Below, piece by piece: positions 1,517 through 8,700 of a stretch of 34,125 nucleotides of DNA. The DNA comes from a virus. Made by a program: the position numbers and the translations under genes. A model generated the notes under the pieces. That model saw only the letters and a program-made list of their open reading frames with translations. It did not search any database and was not told the DNA's origin. The stretch spans positions 1 to 34,125 of IMG/VR virus record IMGVR_UViG_3300046721_000305. One strand, written 5' to 3'. Position 1 is the stretch's first letter. The number at the start of each line of letters is the position of its first letter.

Positions 1517-1678
1517 TTATTCAATTACCTTTGGTTCTTCGGGTTGTTGGTCATTAATAGTTGCCAGCAGGTTTTGTACCTCTTCTACAGATTTATATTC
1601 ACCAAATCTATGTAATGCACTGCAATATGAATCAGCTATACGCATTAATTGTAATATTTGTTTTTCGCTAATTATCAT
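1517..1678 (-). CDS. Hypothetical 53-aa early protein
   Basis: Short but well placed. The ATG overlaps the stop of the preceding gene as ATGA (1675-1678), and the DUF6948-like gene follows 24 bases after its stop. The sequence is helical and mixed-charge (MIISEKQILQLMRIADSY, then HRFGEYKSVEEVQNLLATIN) with a polar tail ending EEPKVIE. Small helical proteins of this look (ISEKQ at the start, an NDQQ-type end) are often next to DUF6948 genes in phages as I recall. Function unknown. Confidence 0.65.
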   Translation of the reverse strand: MIISEKQILQLMRIADSYCSALHRFGEYKSVEEVQNLLATINDQQPEEPKVIE

Positions 1679-2037
1679 GTTAATTCTTCTAATCGTTTAA
1701 TCATCGCATTGATGGCTTCTTGTTTTGATTTGAAATAAAATTTACTATTTTTTGTAAGTCCAGAATTTTTATCTGATAACCAATAATGCGAATCATCAGT
1801 ACTTAGAATGATATAGTTTTTTAGTTCTAGCTCACTGGCATTTAAAAATATGTTTTGGTCGGGACCTTCAAACCACCAAATTGGATCGCCAACTTTGAAC
1901 TCGCAATAGTTATCAATCATTGATTGGACTTTGGATTTCAATGTAGCATATACACCTTCCGGTGGTTGGCTATATTGACAATAAGTATCAACTAAATAAT
2001 TTATTGTTGTTAGCTCTTCTTTCGTGAGGTCATTCAT
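1675..2037 (-). CDS. Hypothetical 120-aa early protein, paralogue of the next gene upstream
   Basis: Start at 2037 is preferred over an in-frame ATG at 2061 because it forms an ATGA overlap with the upstream stop, as do its neighbours. The first 40 residues (MNDLTKEELTTINYLVDTY to SMIDNYCEF) align with the product of 2034-2252 (MSDFTREELIILNN to SMIKNYCGH), so the two genes share a duplicated N-terminal module. The C-terminal half is different: W-W-F-E-G-P-D-Q-N-I-F-L-N-A-S and YWLSDKNSGLTKNSKFYFKSKQEAINAMIKRLEEL. That looks like a small alpha/beta domain in which phage proteins often display a value to a user-specified helix, but I cannot name it. Confidence 0.7.
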   Translation of the reverse strand: MNDLTKEELTTINYLVDTYCQYSQPPEGVYATLKSKVQSMIDNYCEFKVGDPIWWFEGPDQNIFLNASELELKNYIILSTDDSHYWLSDKNSGLTKNSKFYFKSKQEAINAMIKRLEELT

Positions 2038-2252
2038 TTCAATGTTCCACATTTTATACATTTAAAATAACTTGCTGTGCTATGATCCATGTATTCGTAG
2101 TCATGTCCGCAATAGTTCTTAATCATAGATTGGATTTTTTCTGTTAATTTTTGACATTTTTCTAAGTATTCTTTGCTTAAATTCACGCTGTCCGGTAGAT
2201 ATTCAACCCCATTATTTAATATAATCAGCTCTTCTCTGGTGAAGTCACTCAT
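2034..2252 (-). CDS. Hypothetical 72-aa protein with duplicated C-terminal zinc-ribbon-like tail
   Basis: The start at 2252 makes an ATGA overlap with the upstream stop. The N-terminal 45 residues are helical and related to the gene at 1675-2037. The C-terminus reads NYCGHDYEYMDHSTASYFKC then I-K-C-G. Cys-x-His, Asp-His and C-x2-C could form one small zinc site. The same tail, nearly identical, ends the product of 2249-2488. The DNA behind the tail is a 72-bp direct repeat. Function unknown; the tail may be a mobile zinc knuckle for RNA, DNA or protein contacts. Confidence 0.7.
   Translation of the reverse strand: MSDFTREELIILNNGVEYLPDSVNLSKEYLEKCQKLTEKIQSMIKNYCGHDYEYMDHSTASYFKCIKCGTLK
2046..2117. 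repeat. 72-bp direct repeat, copy 1 (zinc-tail module)
   Basis: Matches 2261-2332 at 67 of 72 positions by eye. It encodes the C-terminal zinc-like tail of the 72-aa protein and runs into the start region of the next gene, so the duplicated unit spans a gene junction. Confidence 0.85.
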
Positions 2253-2488
2253 CTGACTGCTCCACATTTTAAACATTTAAAGTAACTTGCTGTGCCATGA
2301 TCCATGTGTTTGTAGTCATGTCCGCAATAGTTATCATCTTGCTCTCTAGCGATGAATCCAAGATGTATAAGAATCTCTTTGATGCCAAGTAAAGCCGTAT
2401 AATCTGTTTCTCTACCCGTTTTATATCGTTCAATTAAGCCCTTTATTGCACAAATTGCAATCCAATCATTTAGTCTCTCTTCATTCAT
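2249..2488 (-). CDS. Hypothetical 79-aa protein with zinc-ribbon-like tail
   Basis: Residues 1-50 form a helical head (MNEERLNDWIAICAIKGLIE and beyond, to HLGFIAREQD) unlike its neighbours. The last 25 residues are the shared tail: CGHDY, MDHGTASYFKC, LKCG. A GAAGGTGA site precedes the ATG. The gene overlaps the downstream gene by ATGA and the tiny upstream gene by 8 bases. The swap of heads on one conserved tail suggests module shuffling by recombination at the 72-bp repeat. Function unknown. Confidence 0.7.
   Translation of the reverse strand: MNEERLNDWIAICAIKGLIERYKTGRETDYTALLGIKEILIHLGFIAREQDDNYCGHDYKHMDHGTASYFKCLKCGAVR
2261..2332. repeat. 72-bp direct repeat, copy 2 (zinc-tail module)
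   Basis: Second copy of the unit at 2046-2117, same orientation, five mismatches. The two copies are 215 bases apart. Confidence 0.85.
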
Positions 2489-2573: not shown

Positions 2574-2765
2574 CTACGGCATCGGCGGTAATGGTTTATC
2601 CAAGTAAATAATGTTTTCCACGGCCTCAATTACCCAATACATCCCTTGCTTTTTTTCCTCTGGCATATGCTTGCCAAGTTCAATAATCACTGATGTTGCG
2701 TAACCTATTACCAGCGACAATCTTTGATTCATTTGTATTAGTTTATCTATATTGTCTTCAGTCAT
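2574..2765 (-). CDS. Hypothetical 63-aa early protein
   Basis: The start overlaps the stop of the Tad2-like gene by 8 bases (ATGACTGA), implying translational coupling. The middle is helical with a hydrophobic stretch (SLVIGYATSVIIELG), probably a core helix and too short and interrupted for a clear membrane span. The end is a proline-rich D-K-P-L-P-P-M-P. Small phage proteins ending in this way are familiar to me, but without a known function. Confidence 0.7.
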   Translation of the reverse strand: MTEDNIDKLIQMNQRLSLVIGYATSVIIELGKHMPEEKKQGMYWVIEAVENIIYLDKPLPPMP

Positions 2766-3138
2766 TTAACACCACCCAGTCGTCTGCTGTAAATGAATCA
2801 AAATCAGGGGTGAATGGGAATATGTATAAGGATTCAAGCACCAAAACTTTGTCTAAAGGATCAAGATACATAACCATGTCTTCCCATCCTTTCCATTTTG
2901 CTCTTGACCCTTGCTGCAATAGTGGGATAAGGTCGCAAAATTTAAATTCTTCTTTATTACCCTCTACAATCCATCCATCTGAAATCATGATGGACTCGTC
3001 ATATTGATATAAATTAATCCTGGGCTGAAATGATTTAATTTCCTTATCTTTCATAAAAAAGTAAATGCCATCACCCCATAGACGCCGACTAACTTTAGCG
3101 CCAGACTTTAATTTCTCTATTGCTTCGCTGAATTTCAT
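2758..3138 (-). CDS. Two-copy Tad2-like (DUF2829) protein, possible anti-Thoeris factor
   Basis: Residues 1-58 read like a DUF2829/Tad2 domain: MKFSEAIEKLKSGAKVSRR, a Trp-Gly turn, a short strand I-Y-F-F-M, and an end like D-x-I-M-I-S-D-G-W-I-V. Residues 64-124 look like a second, diverged copy: FKFCDLIPLLQQGSRAKWKG, W-E-D-M-V-M-Y-L, and a closing F-T-A-D-D-W-V-V-L. Known Tad2 proteins have about 85-90 residues with one domain; they sequester the cyclic ADP-ribose-type signal of Thoeris and so block abortive infection. Here two shortened copies appear fused. Anti-defence activity is inferred from the family. A single-copy relative is at 15232-15489. Confidence 0.6.
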   Translation of the reverse strand: MKFSEAIEKLKSGAKVSRRLWGDGIYFFMKDKEIKSFQPRINLYQYDESIMISDGWIVEGNKEEFKFCDLIPLLQQGSRAKWKGWEDMVMYLDPLDKVLVLESLYIFPFTPDFDSFTADDWVVLND

Positions 3139-3380: not shown

Positions 3381-3692
3381 TTACAGCCAGTGAAATCCAT
3401 GTGCCATTACTCCAAAAAGGGTGGCAAATTGTGTAAATATTATACCTAAAACCCATTTGAAATTAGAGTCCATACGGTTATCTAATTTATCTACTCTACT
3501 ATCTACCTTATCGATTTTATAACTAAGTTCTTTTTCTACTTTGTCGATTTTAGTAAGAACTTCTACTTTTAAGTCAACAATACTTTTTTCAATTCTATTT
3601 AGAGATCCTACAAAATTCTCATTCCTTTGCTCTAACATCATAATCCTTACTTGGTCATTGCTAAATGTTTCCTTCTTTACAGCACTACTCAT
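3381..3692 (-). CDS. Coiled-coil protein with C-terminal membrane anchor (103 aa)
   Basis: Residues 20-78 are a heptad coiled coil (I-E-K-S-I-V-D-L-K-V-E-V, KIDKVEKELSYKIDKVDSRV, K-L-D-N-R-M). Residues 79-103 are one hydrophobic segment, WVLGIIFTQFATLFGVMAHG, ending F-H-W-L. This is the architecture of XhlA/haemolysin-type phage membrane proteins, which help lysis in some phages; function here is unproven. The end G-x-M-A-H-G-F-x-W is shared with the 64-aa protein at 6924-7118. It overlaps the upstream gene by 8 bases. Confidence 0.7.
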   Translation of the reverse strand: MSSAVKKETFSNDQVRIMMLEQRNENFVGSLNRIEKSIVDLKVEVLTKIDKVEKELSYKIDKVDSRVDKLDNRMDSNFKWVLGIIFTQFATLFGVMAHGFHWL

Positions 3693-3966
3693 TACGCTTA
3701 CTCCTCATTCTGTCTTTTAAACGGGCTGCATAAACTATGCGGCCCATTAAAAACCGCTCCATTTTCTTTCGCTCACCATCAATATTATCGCCTTCAAGCG
3801 AATTAATTTCATATGCACACACTATTCCAAGGACAGATAGGATATCTTGAGCATATAAGTCTATATTGCCATGATAAGTTTTTATGTCGAGATTTTCTCG
3901 TATTGTATGGATTAATCGATTTGATAAGCTGACTAGCTTGCTTTCGTTGATATACACCAAGGTCAT
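3685..3966 (-). CDS. Hypothetical 93-aa early protein
   Basis: Soluble, mixed alpha. The N-terminus MTLVYINESKLVSLSNRLIH leads into helices with Y-A-Q-D-I-L-S-V-L-G and E-G-D-N-I-D-G-E-R-K-K-M-E-R-F-L. The C-terminal 20 residues are basic (R-L-K-D-R-M-R-S-K-R-N-E) and could bind nucleic acid. AAAAGGATTT precedes the ATG. It is the first protein gene after the candidate structured RNA, which lies 55 bases upstream on the same strand. Not recognised. Confidence 0.65.
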   Translation of the reverse strand: MTLVYINESKLVSLSNRLIHTIRENLDIKTYHGNIDLYAQDILSVLGIVCAYEINSLEGDNIDGERKKMERFLMGRIVYAARLKDRMRSKRNE

Positions 3967-4021
3967 TCTAAATCCTTTTAATAGTCAGTTTAAATAGTTC
4001 ATTAATTGATTTCCTTTAAAT

Positions 4022-4310
4022 GGGGGGATGGCAGGATTTTCACCTGCACCTGCCTCGTTACCCGCTGTTACCAATCCATTCGACTGCATCATTTAAGCAG
4101 CACGGTTTCGCCTATGGCAATATGAGGCGCTCTTCACTTAAAGCTTTTCGAGCTCCATCCCATAATCTTAAATAGTGAGCGCCTTTCACGCCCTCGTATT
4201 CTTTCGATGCGAATATGTACATCCCTAACAAATGAGGCGATCCTCAACTTTTTGGCCGATTAGAGATAGCCTCACGGTCTTAAGTGCACCTAGGACCGAG
4301 TTCTTTGATA
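4022..4310 (-). ncRNA. Candidate structured RNA between SSB gene and 93-aa gene
   Basis: This is about 290 bases with no credible open frame and with GC near 47 percent, above its flanks. Minus-strand helices seen by eye: CGGTC/GACCG near 4299-4277; GGCGCTC pairing with GAGCGCC (7 bp), extended by ACT/AGT past a bulge, enclosing AGCT/AGCT; CGCCT/AGGCG; and a 3' hairpin GCAGG-TGAAAAT-CCTGC that resembles a tRNA T-arm. The hairpin is followed at once by CATCCC and a C-run ending CCA. Upstream GGGATGG can pair with CCATCCC, giving a pseudoknot or tRNA-like closure. It is neither a normal tRNA (no D or anticodon arm) nor a recognisable tmRNA. Exact ends are unknown; it may be processed from the leftward transcript. 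Confidence 0.5.
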
Positions 4311-4314
4311 GCGA

Positions 4315-4803
4315 TCAAAACGCTATATCGTCATCTTTAAACGGATTATCATCTATTTTTTGCTCTAATGGCCTTTGGTCATCTTTCTTCACATAATCGT
4401 CGATCTTATTTTTGTCTGGATACTTCGAGCCAAATGCTTTTCCTTTTAACTTATCTTCGGGGATGAGTCCACCCTGTTCGATAGTAATTTTAACCCTAAC
4501 ATGATTTCCCATTGCTGATTCAGAGCATAGTTTCCCTGCCTCATAAGTCTTTAAAAGTCCTGCTGAATCAGCAAAGTGTATTACCTTCCACATCATAGTC
4601 TTGGTAAATACCAGGAAGTCTCGCACCTCACGTGTACGTCCATTTTCATCAAAAACCTGCAAGGTAAGATCCATCATTGGGTTACCACTACTAGACACTT
4701 TATCTTTGGATGAAGCAATCACAGCCTCATATTCGCCTTCTTTAAGCAAATTGAATCGCTCTTCAATTGCTTCTCTTTCACTCATGACATCATAGGCAAA
4801 CAT
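4315..4803 (-). CDS. ssb: Phage single-stranded DNA-binding protein (DUF669-like)
   Basis: Residues 15-120 show the DUF669-type pattern: LKEGEYEAVIASSKDKVSSS, M-M-D-L-T-L-Q-V-F, WKVIHFADSAGLLKTYEAGK, G-N-H-V-R-V-K-I. This family is an OB-fold-like phage SSB group. The last 35 residues are acidic and disordered and end N-P-F-K-D-D-D-I-A-F, like the SSB tip (DDDIPF) that recruits partner proteins. The ribosome site AAGGAGAG lies inside the end of the Sak4-like gene, so the two are co-translated. It should coat single strands and stimulate annealing by Sak4; cognate Sak4-SSB pairs are known, for example in the P22-like phage HK620. Confidence 0.8.
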   Translation of the reverse strand: MFAYDVMSEREAIEERFNLLKEGEYEAVIASSKDKVSSSGNPMMDLTLQVFDENGRTREVRDFLVFTKTMMWKVIHFADSAGLLKTYEAGKLCSESAMGNHVRVKITIEQGGLIPEDKLKGKAFGSKYPDKNKIDDYVKKDDQRPLEQKIDDNPFKDDDIAF

Positions 4804-6923: not shown

Positions 6924-7118
6924 CTAAATTATCCATTTAAACCCATGCGCCATAAGTCCTAACAATCCTAGAAATCCAGAACCCATGAGCCCAAACATCC
7001 ATCGTTGATTCGATTCAATTCTATCCATTGACTTATAAATGTGGTCGAATGTTTTATAAATCTCTTCATTCTTCTGTTTTAACAACTCTATATTAAGCTG
7101 CTCTTGTGTATAAGTCAT
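6924..7118 (-). CDS. Coiled-coil protein with C-terminal membrane anchor (64 aa)
   Basis: First gene behind the consensus leftward promoter at 7144-7171. A helical charged N-terminus (QEQLNIELLKQKNEEIYKTF) forms a probable coiled coil up to residue 38. Residues 40-64 form a hydrophobic segment with G-L-M-G-S-G-F-L-G-L-L-G-L-M-A-H-G-F. The end resembles that of the 103-aa protein at 3381-3692. AAGAGGTGAT is a strong ribosome site. Strong early expression suggests a role at the membrane soon after infection, such as superinfection exclusion or lysis control; this is inference. Confidence 0.75.
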   Translation of the reverse strand: MTYTQEQLNIELLKQKNEEIYKTFDHIYKSMDRIESNQRWMFGLMGSGFLGLLGLMAHGFKWII

Positions 7119-7677: not shown

Positions 7678-8700
7678 ATGTCGCATGCAAATTATAACAC
7701 GAATGCTCAGGAGTACAACCACCCTGCTTATGTAAATATACCTTTCTTTGTACTTCAAGAAGAGAGACTGGATTTTTTTAATAAATTCTTGTTTTCTTTA
7801 TTTTGGAGCTTTTCTGTTTCTGGCAAACGGATTAATACAAGCAATGGATACTTAGCTGAATTATTTAAAGTATCTGAAAAATACATTCAAATACGAATTA
7901 AAGACTTAGAAGACTTGGGTTTCATCCGCCGCTACAGTCGCAAATACAAGCGCTACATTGAAGTTCTTCACGCCCCTTTTAATGACATAGAAATATCAAA
8001 TAGCCCAAATATTGAACTGGTACCAACCACAGTTGGTGTCAGTACAAATATTATACTGCCACCAACCACAGTTGGTGTCTCCCACCAACTACAGTTGGTC
8101 CCCCCACCAACCACAGTTGGTCCATATAACAAAGAAGATAACAAAGAAGATAACAAAGCTAATACAACACCTATCGGTGTTTCCGAGGGAAAATCCTTTT
8201 TGTTGACTGTAAAAGACATGCTTAAAGACAATCCTCATAACATTGACGAGCCATTGCTTAATGAATGGATGATTATTCGCAAAAATAAGAAAGCGCCTTT
8301 GACTCGTACTGCGTGGAATAGAACGAATAAGGTGATGACACGACTTGTTGAAGCTGGTTTGTTAGCTGTTGATTGTTTTGAGCGAATGGTAGCAAGTGGA
8401 TGGCAGGGGATGGAGTTTAAGTATTTTGAACAAGAATTGATTAAAAACCCTGTATTAAAATATCCAACTCCTAGCGAACGGGCTATTAATGAACAAAAAA
8501 TTCGTGAACGTGAACTAAAATCGAATCAGGAAAAGCAAAAAGAGATTGAAGAAAGTACTTCTTCCTATAAAAATATAAAGCAGCATATAAATATTTTTGA
8601 TATGAAAAAACATCAAGATGCAGATATGGAGAAATTGGGAATGAGCCGTCTTCAGTATCATGATTATATAACCATGGGGAAATCTATCGTTCATAAATAA
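7678..8700 (+). CDS. Replication initiator, lambda-O-like, with winged-helix domain
   Basis: Start at 7678 is preferred because AAAGGA lies 9 bases upstream; an in-frame ATG at 7645 would add 11 residues. Residues about 20-100 are an HTH_36-type winged helix (H-P-A-Y-V-N-I-P, N-G-Y-L-A-E-L-F-K-V-S, ISEKYIQ-like recognition helix, L-G-F-I-R-R-Y). Residues 115-150 repeat P-T-T-V-G because the DNA there is a set of four iterons. N-K-E-D repeats follow. The C-terminal domain (about 185-255) holds W-M-I-I-R-K-N-K-K-A-P-L-T and S-G-W-Q-G-M-E-F, as in other phage O-type initiators. It should bind the iterons in its own gene and recruit the host helicase loader or helicase, as no DnaB or DnaC gene is visible. 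Confidence 0.8.
   Translation: MSHANYNTNAQEYNHPAYVNIPFFVLQEERLDFFNKFLFSLFWSFSVSGKRINTSNGYLAELFKVSEKYIQIRIKDLEDLGFIRRYSRKYKRYIEVLHAPFNDIEISNSPNIELVPTTVGVSTNIILPPTTVGVSHQLQLVPPPTTVGPYNKEDNKEDNKANTTPIGVSEGKSFLLTVKDMLKDNPHNIDEPLLNEWMIIRKNKKAPLTRTAWNRTNKVMTRLVEAGLLAVDCFERMVASGWQGMEFKYFEQELIKNPVLKYPTPSERAINEQKIRERELKSNQEKQKEIEESTSSYKNIKQHINIFDMKKHQDADMEKLGMSRLQYHDYITMGKSIVHK
8022..8121. other. ori: Replication origin: four dyad iterons inside the initiator gene
   Basis: ACCAACCACAGTTGGT occurs at 8022-8037, 8061-8076 and 8106-8121, and with one change (ACCAACTACAGTTGGT) at 8084-8099. Each has perfect 6-bp arms around a 4-base centre. Spacing start to start is 39, 23 and 22 bases. Iterons inside an O-type gene beside an A-rich tract match the lambda ori plan. 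A CRISPR array is excluded by the short, coding, palindromic units. Confidence 0.85.
8126..8158. repeat. A-rich 12-bp direct repeats beside the iterons
   Basis: ATAACAAAGAAG is repeated at 8126-8137 and 8138-8149 with a partial third copy to 8158. The strand bias (purines on the plus strand) and position next to the iterons suit a DNA unwinding element. Confidence 0.7.

Follow-up and report, generated by a model that had tools for sequence, protein, structure and literature searches.

The window, i.e., the whole 34,125-base stretch analyzed here, is an IMG/VR virus record whose terminase has its best cultured-phage match in a Pelagibacter phage, at 41% identity. On its minus strand, a 348-nt non-coding gap separates an open reading frame (ORF) at 3685-3966 from an SSB-like gene (ssb) at 4315-4803. 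No plausible gene could be identified in this gap, and six of six frames are broken throughout. GC content, computed over 60-nt segments, is 0.43-0.55 across approximately 4021-4320 versus 0.23-0.38 just before, the mean of the window being 0.40. A first-pass annotation had pointed out this elevated GC content and proposed one undescribed structured RNA of about 290 bases, carried by the minus strand just downstream of SSB. Its position, strand, and non-coding, structured nature were borne out, but the gap harbors two structured RNAs in tandem, RNA A and, directly upstream of it on the same strand as ssb, RNA C. The accompanying statement that genes otherwise touch or overlap is only partly true, as gaps of more than 100 nt exist elsewhere in the window, some of them filled by small ORFs. 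The features of the locus are the following.

2758-3138, minus strand: Tad2-like gene of the same early block, with a Pfam Thoeris anti-defence 2-like domain (E 1.9e-12)
4016-4164, minus strand: RNA A, full extent of the modelled region (covariance model R1, covariation, and alignment A1 with its 16 copies)
4156-4162, minus strand: RNA A, 5′ strand of the acceptor-type stem; GGGAUG pairs, 4162 is unpaired in the window; helix 1, 6 of 7 pairs changed on both sides
4129-4153, minus strand: RNA A, D-type arm, with the stem GCUC/GAGC at 4150-4153 and 4129-4132
4124-4128, minus strand: RNA A, 5′ strand of the anticodon-type stem, GCCUC (helix 3)
4057-4123, minus strand: RNA A, structured domain of 67 nt replacing the anticodon loop
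4052-4056, minus strand: RNA A, 3′ strand of the anticodon-type stem, GAGGC (helix 3)
4048-4051, minus strand: RNA A, variable loop of 4 nt, AGGU
4031-4047, minus strand: RNA A, T-type arm GCAGG-UGAAAAU-CCUGC (helix 5, 4 of 5 pairs changed on both sides)
4021-4030, minus strand: RNA A, 3′ strand of the acceptor-type stem (CAUCCC), discriminator C and encoded CCA
4173-4303, minus strand: RNA C, which likely belongs to a second structured family as a divergent copy (based on alignment A2 and a count of pairs)
4271-4300, minus strand: RNA C, 5′ hairpin (CGGTC/GACCG)
4177-4193, minus strand: RNA C, T-type arm GGGCG-UGAAAGG-CGCUC
4315-4803, minus strand: SSB-like gene (DUF669, phrog_378), upstream neighbor of the RNAs

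The mature ends of RNA A likely lie at approximately 4161 and 4021. Its 17-nt D-type loop (GAAAAGCUUUAAGUGAA) is devoid of GG and could form a mini-hairpin, and the 67-nt domain consists, in order, of AUAUU, the hairpin GCC-AUA-GGC (4110-4118, helix 4), a variable part, and UAAC. Constraining the fold to a cloverleaf costs no stability relative to the free minimum (-47.2 versus -47.1 kcal/mol). Five-base-pair hairpins with a UGAAANN loop and a G-C closing pair occur only twice on the two strands of the whole window, both times in the gap. Single-sequence folding energies gave z scores of -1.26 for the whole gap and -2.0 for RNA A alone. They are weak evidence for the RNAs of the gap; as the value of the whole gap is unexceptional, homologues were required, and conservation and covariation are decisive.

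Homologues of RNA A were collected from IMG/VR relatives of the SSB protein and then by pattern scans. Related non-coding sequence was recognizable downstream of ssb in L002-L006, and RNA A was found in 16 uncultivated phage records beyond the window (L002, L003, L004, L005, L006, L021, L024 [same contig as L016], L025, L026, L030, L031, L034, L035, L040, L043, and L061). Alignment A1 comprises the window and 15 of these records, without L061, which was picked up later with the model. The counts of homologues are lower bounds, the collections having been searched by patterns, and the alignments of the inserts are approximate. The copies share the same layout: an acceptor-type stem, a GA joint, the 4-bp D stem GCUC/GAGC, a 5-bp stem GCCUC/GAGGU, a 4-nt AGGU loop, a 5-bp arm closing a 7-nt loop (GCAGG-UGAAANN-CCUGC), and the 3′ strand of the acceptor, behind which ACCA or ACCC usually comes. 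Of 17 copies, 7 encode CCA, and several more have ACC and another base. This order and spacing of helices is that of the tRNA cloverleaf.

Over the 24 pairs of A1, 95.1% of the cells are paired, with an invariant D stem. Changes on both sides affect 15 of the 24 pairs, in 41 cells, compared with means of 6.0 and 11.0 in shuffled alignments, none of which reached these values (0 of 500), and pairing falls to 39-45% when the partners are slid by 1-3 columns. Given no structure, RNAalifold returned the same four stems as in the tRNA cloverleaf. The compensated variants include GGGAUG/CAUCCC, GGGAUA/UAUCCC, GGGGUUG/CAACCCC, and UGAAGCA/UGCUUCA in the acceptor; GCCUC/GAGGC, GCCUA/UAGGU, and ACCUU/AAGGU in the anticodon-type stem; and GCAGG/CCUGC, GCGGG/CCCGC, GAGGG/CCCUC, and GCGUG/CACGC in the T arm. 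The acceptor of L043 is poorly paired. Many cells of A1 hold G-U pairs, up to 12 of 16 copies at one position; these would be A-C mismatches on the other strand and are in keeping with an RNA on the minus strand, that of ssb. We consider it almost certain that RNA A is a tRNA-like RNA, although this assessment rests on sequence comparison, without transcript, processing, or binding data.

The first-pass annotation had named lack of covariation among homologues as grounds for refuting the RNA, a test that it passed. The tRNA-like core that it had suggested to be closed by GGGATGG/CCATCCC corresponds to the conserved, covarying 6-bp acceptor stem GGGAUG/CAUCCC, and its T-arm-like hairpin GCAGG-TGAAAAT-CCTGC is likewise a conserved, covarying helix. 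CGGTC/GACCG is a real helix, except that it belongs to the second RNA as the 5′ hairpin of RNA C. We rejected the 7-bp stem GGCGCTC/GAGCGCC, which would join the neighboring RNAs and whose upstream partner did not appear in the homologues read; its GAGC is part of the D stem, and GCCTC has GAGGC as its partner. The claim that the structure was undescribed also held, as no Rfam family, RF00005 included, reached its gathering threshold for the RNAs of the gap, which are absent from Rfam 15. The only matches at E values up to 10, Mahella-1 (E 0.73) and SpR08 (E 7.6), were dismissed as noise. BLASTN against annotated phages and plasmids yielded no match, the exact T-arm pattern was not found in IMG/VR, and no description of RNAs A, B (see below), or C was found in the open-licence literature. 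Pattern matches in bacterial genomes (L045-L047) and in other viral contigs (L032, L033, L036-L039, L041, L042, L044, and L065) were set aside as apparent chance matches in coding or unrelated DNA.

Conservation of RNA A is strongest in the frame, where the most conserved letters are GAGCUCGAAA, GAAGAGC, AACGAGGUAGGUG, and GGUGAAA. The insert measures approximately 45-150 nt in the homologues, begins with AUAUU or AUUUU, ends with UAAC, and, in most copies, includes a short hairpin that covaries. Inserts differ strongly between subgroups, so that no common target surface is evident. Many copies lie just past the ssb stop codon, on the same strand as their neighbors; others follow different small genes or sit within tRNA clusters (L016, L031, L035, and L040).

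RNA A shares with canonical tRNA (RF00005) the same helices in the same order and spacing, the 4-nt variable loop, the 7-nt T loop, and often ACCA. It differs by the absence of a 7-nt anticodon loop with a readable anticodon, replaced with a structured domain; by a D loop of the GAAA... type without G18G19; and by a UGAAANN T loop (GGAAGUU in two copies) without U55/C56, which fails the U54U55C56 test. ARAGORN in its bacterial modes, with introns allowed, recognized RNA A neither in the window nor in any of the 16 copies, and none of the 16 cores was called in bacterial mode when the insert was cut out. The permissive mitochondrial mode called 3 of the 16 cores, with inconsistent anticodons. 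An unfiltered run of R1, a model of RNA A only, on the tRNA region of T4 gave as its top matches tRNA-Thr (17.0 bits, E 1.4e-5) and tRNA-Pro (14.8 bits, E 8e-5); in L062, tRNA-Pro and tRNA-Arg rank first. The remaining canonical tRNAs there scored weakly or not at all, as is expected from a distant resemblance. With its anticodon loop replaced and its D and T loops altered, RNA A is predicted not to be a decoding tRNA, no aminoacylation data being available. tmRNA also combines a tRNA-like end domain with a large insertion, but it lacks a true D stem and contains pseudoknots and a tag reading frame, whereas the D stem of RNA A is invariant. ARAGORN detected no tmRNA in the window or in the loci scanned.

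RNA C of the window can be aligned to a family, likewise called RNA C, with records in L026, L040, L043, L049, L051, L053, L054, L055, and L061. The covarying elements of this family are the T arm, two hairpins (one at the 5′ end, the other CUGC/GCAG), and a GGUC/GAUC pairing, which would be a pseudoknot; 96.8% of the cells are paired, and 13 of 19 pairs show changes on both sides. An acceptor stem was not found in this family. In the window copy, the sequence between 5′ hairpin and T arm has diverged while these two elements are kept, so that 4173-4303 is a likely, not a certain, member of the family. A third family, RNA B (GACAAUCG...CGAUUGUC, with a D arm and a T arm), is absent from the window and was aligned from 14 records. 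It keeps the frame of acceptor, D arm, and T arm around a hypervariable middle that cannot be aligned and varies widely in length. In the frame, 98.3% of the cells are paired and 9 of 17 pairs have changed on both sides; L051 has, e.g., the compensated acceptor GACCGAUU/AAUUGGUC.

Related phages carry A, B, and C in tandem or as neighbors of canonical tRNAs. L061 has the row ssb, C, B, A; RNA B of L062 is located between canonical tRNA-Pro and tRNA-Met within a seven-tRNA cluster; RNA A of L040 immediately precedes tRNA-Tyr; and RNA C follows a tRNA in L051 and L055. A descriptor combining T arm, acceptor, and D arm matched 24 times in the family loci, a few of these matches being canonical tRNAs and others probably due to chance, compared with 3.7 times in shuffled sequences.

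Further tRNA-like pieces were observed in these records. The family B RNA at 9549-9679 of L035 (minus strand) holds in its middle a second such piece (GGTGTAGCTGGTCAACGTCCGATGGGTTCGATTCCCTACC), i.e., nested tRNA-like structures. Candidates outside families A-C are present at 1229-1416 of L026 (minus strand) and 1935-2060 of L034 (plus strand), with, e.g., the acceptor AGAAGGU/ACCUUCU and the T arm GAGGG-UGGAAUU-CCCUC, or GACAAGUGU...ACACUUGUC-GCCA. GG in the D loop seems to accompany a T loop with C56 in most family B copies, and its absence goes with UGAAANN in family A and L035. This pattern in families A and B might possibly reflect tertiary covariation of the elbow, with no statistics behind it.

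The band C and D RNAs of T4 have been known since the 1970s. Among described RNAs, this pair (rnaC/rnaD, or species 1/2) is of the kind closest to RNA A: both are phage small RNAs, of approximately 120-140 nt, beside tRNA genes, and a T arm (CCGGG-UUCGAAU-CCCGG) lies close to the 3′ end of rnaC. R1 gave only noise at rnaC and rnaD over the T4 region. RNA A is set apart by a full cloverleaf supported by covariation, with D and anticodon-type stems, by its UGAAANN T loop, and by its place in an early operon beside ssb together with families B and C, whereas the T4 pair was reported as late RNAs. RNA A thus adds a new family to a known but obscure kind of RNA, with a structure that is better defined by comparison. 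Bacterial Y RNAs (YrlA), which are non-coding and mimic tRNA, also carry a tRNA-like module; the two ends of RNA A form an acceptor stem, in contrast, and no Ro-type stem is evident, although the sequences were not compared. Phage tRNAs of T5 are used against tRNA-cleaving defenses. The T4 RNAs are stable and their function is still unknown (PMC4933390, PMC9697503), and phage T6 counters the tRNA-cleaving defense Septu when its own tRNA-Tyr is present in additional copies (PMC13096335). Opposition to tRNA-targeting host factors was shown for the T5 and T6 RNAs, which are functional tRNAs, while it is only proposed for RNA A, which has no recognizable anticodon.

Our best overall explanation, which we hold with not quite even confidence, is that RNA A is a tRNA-mimicking non-coding RNA that is excised and acts in trans as a decoy or regulator. 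The host's tRNA-processing machinery (RNase P, 3′ processing, or CCA addition), acting at the tRNA-like ends, would release the RNAs from the early transcript in stable form. The tRNA body, with its acceptor and modified D/T elbow, would then engage host tRNA-recognizing proteins in trans, and the anticodon-side domain may block or redirect the proteins so engaged. The putative target would be tRNA-directed host functions or defenses, no host or defense system being known. That not every copy encodes CCA, that the acceptor of L043 pairs poorly, and that the inserts offer no evident common target surface count against this explanation. The role in trans is a tentative inference, for which transcript, processing, and binding data are lacking. 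It is our first choice because of the early position beside ssb, near the Tad2-like gene, and the relatives in tRNA clusters, and its anti-defense form rests on the presence of that gene in the early block and on the T6 precedent (PMC13096335). A wider reading, possible but doubtful, is that families A, B, and the T-arm-bearing C form a modular island of tRNA-scaffolded viral effector RNAs, early and directed against the host, in which tRNA-like ends are constant and the anticodon side is swapped for structured or hypervariable domains.

The tRNA-like frame might instead serve only processing or stability, the anticodon-side domain being the payload, such as a base-pairing sRNA or a protein-binding element. 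The family B frame, kept around a middle of such variable length and sequence, fits this proposal, as do the quite unlike inserts of RNA A subgroups, but the conservation of RNA A is strongest in the frame itself, beyond what processing alone should need, and we regard this possibility as rather unlikely. Still less probable in our estimation is a mark without any role in trans, whose fold would only process or stabilize the boundary between the ssb mRNA and the downstream early mRNAs. The many copies right behind the ssb stop codon, on their neighbors' strand, would be explained, whereas those behind other small genes or in tRNA clusters would not, and a cut site needs neither a conserved extra domain nor tandem A, B, and C copies.

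A genuine tRNA gene whose anticodon loop is interrupted by an intron, or a tRNA in decay, would account for an insert exactly at the tRNA intron site and for the presence of every tRNA helix. Removal of the insert leaves no tRNA recognizable to ARAGORN in bacterial mode, for which we rejected the intron; detection with introns allowed also failed, neither the mitochondrial-mode calls nor the flanking loop bases give a consistent anticodon, and the D loop without GG and T loop without U55/C56 speak against it as well. Compensatory changes indicate selection, not decay, making this explanation very improbable. Hardly credible, finally, is a DNA-level element forming single-strand hairpins for replication, packaging, or attachment. 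The locus adjoins replication genes, and phage attachment sites frequently correspond to the 3′ ends of tRNAs; however, the G-U pairs are frequent and strand specific, and an attachment site requires only the 3′ part of a tRNA, not a covarying cloverleaf.

To our knowledge, few non-coding RNAs have been described from virulent phages. Families with a structure backed by covariation, many natural variants, and links to tRNA clusters and an anti-defense gene make the role of tRNA-shaped phage RNAs testable. As standard annotation with Rfam and ARAGORN misses these families, they are possibly commoner than known.

Other observations concern neighboring genes and repeats. In L005, L006, and L043, the gene that immediately follows the RNAs starts with MKF..EAMDKLK.G.KVTR, like the Tad2-like gene of the window, as judged by eye. 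The adjoining small early ORFs 2034-2276 and 2249-2488 (minus strand) have a common C-terminal motif, DNYCGHDY.HMDH.TASYFKC.KCG, and the start of ORF 1675-2061 (minus strand) resembles that of ORF 2034-2276; the ORFs within 1675-2488 are a small paralogous family that may have a zinc site. The small proteins encoded at 3381-3692 and 6924-7118 (minus strand) each have a coiled-coil stretch and an identical membrane-like C-terminal end, GLMAHGF.W. Between early genes, 961-1184 is a GC-rich array of degenerate tandem repeats, with CCAAAG-like units of 6 and 30 bases; several of its frames are open and read as repeats of P-E-P-K or A-K-A. A 22-base tandem repeat of 2.9 copies (CCACCAACCACAGTTGGTCCCC) at 8059-8123, within an O-like replication gene, is possibly an origin iteron.
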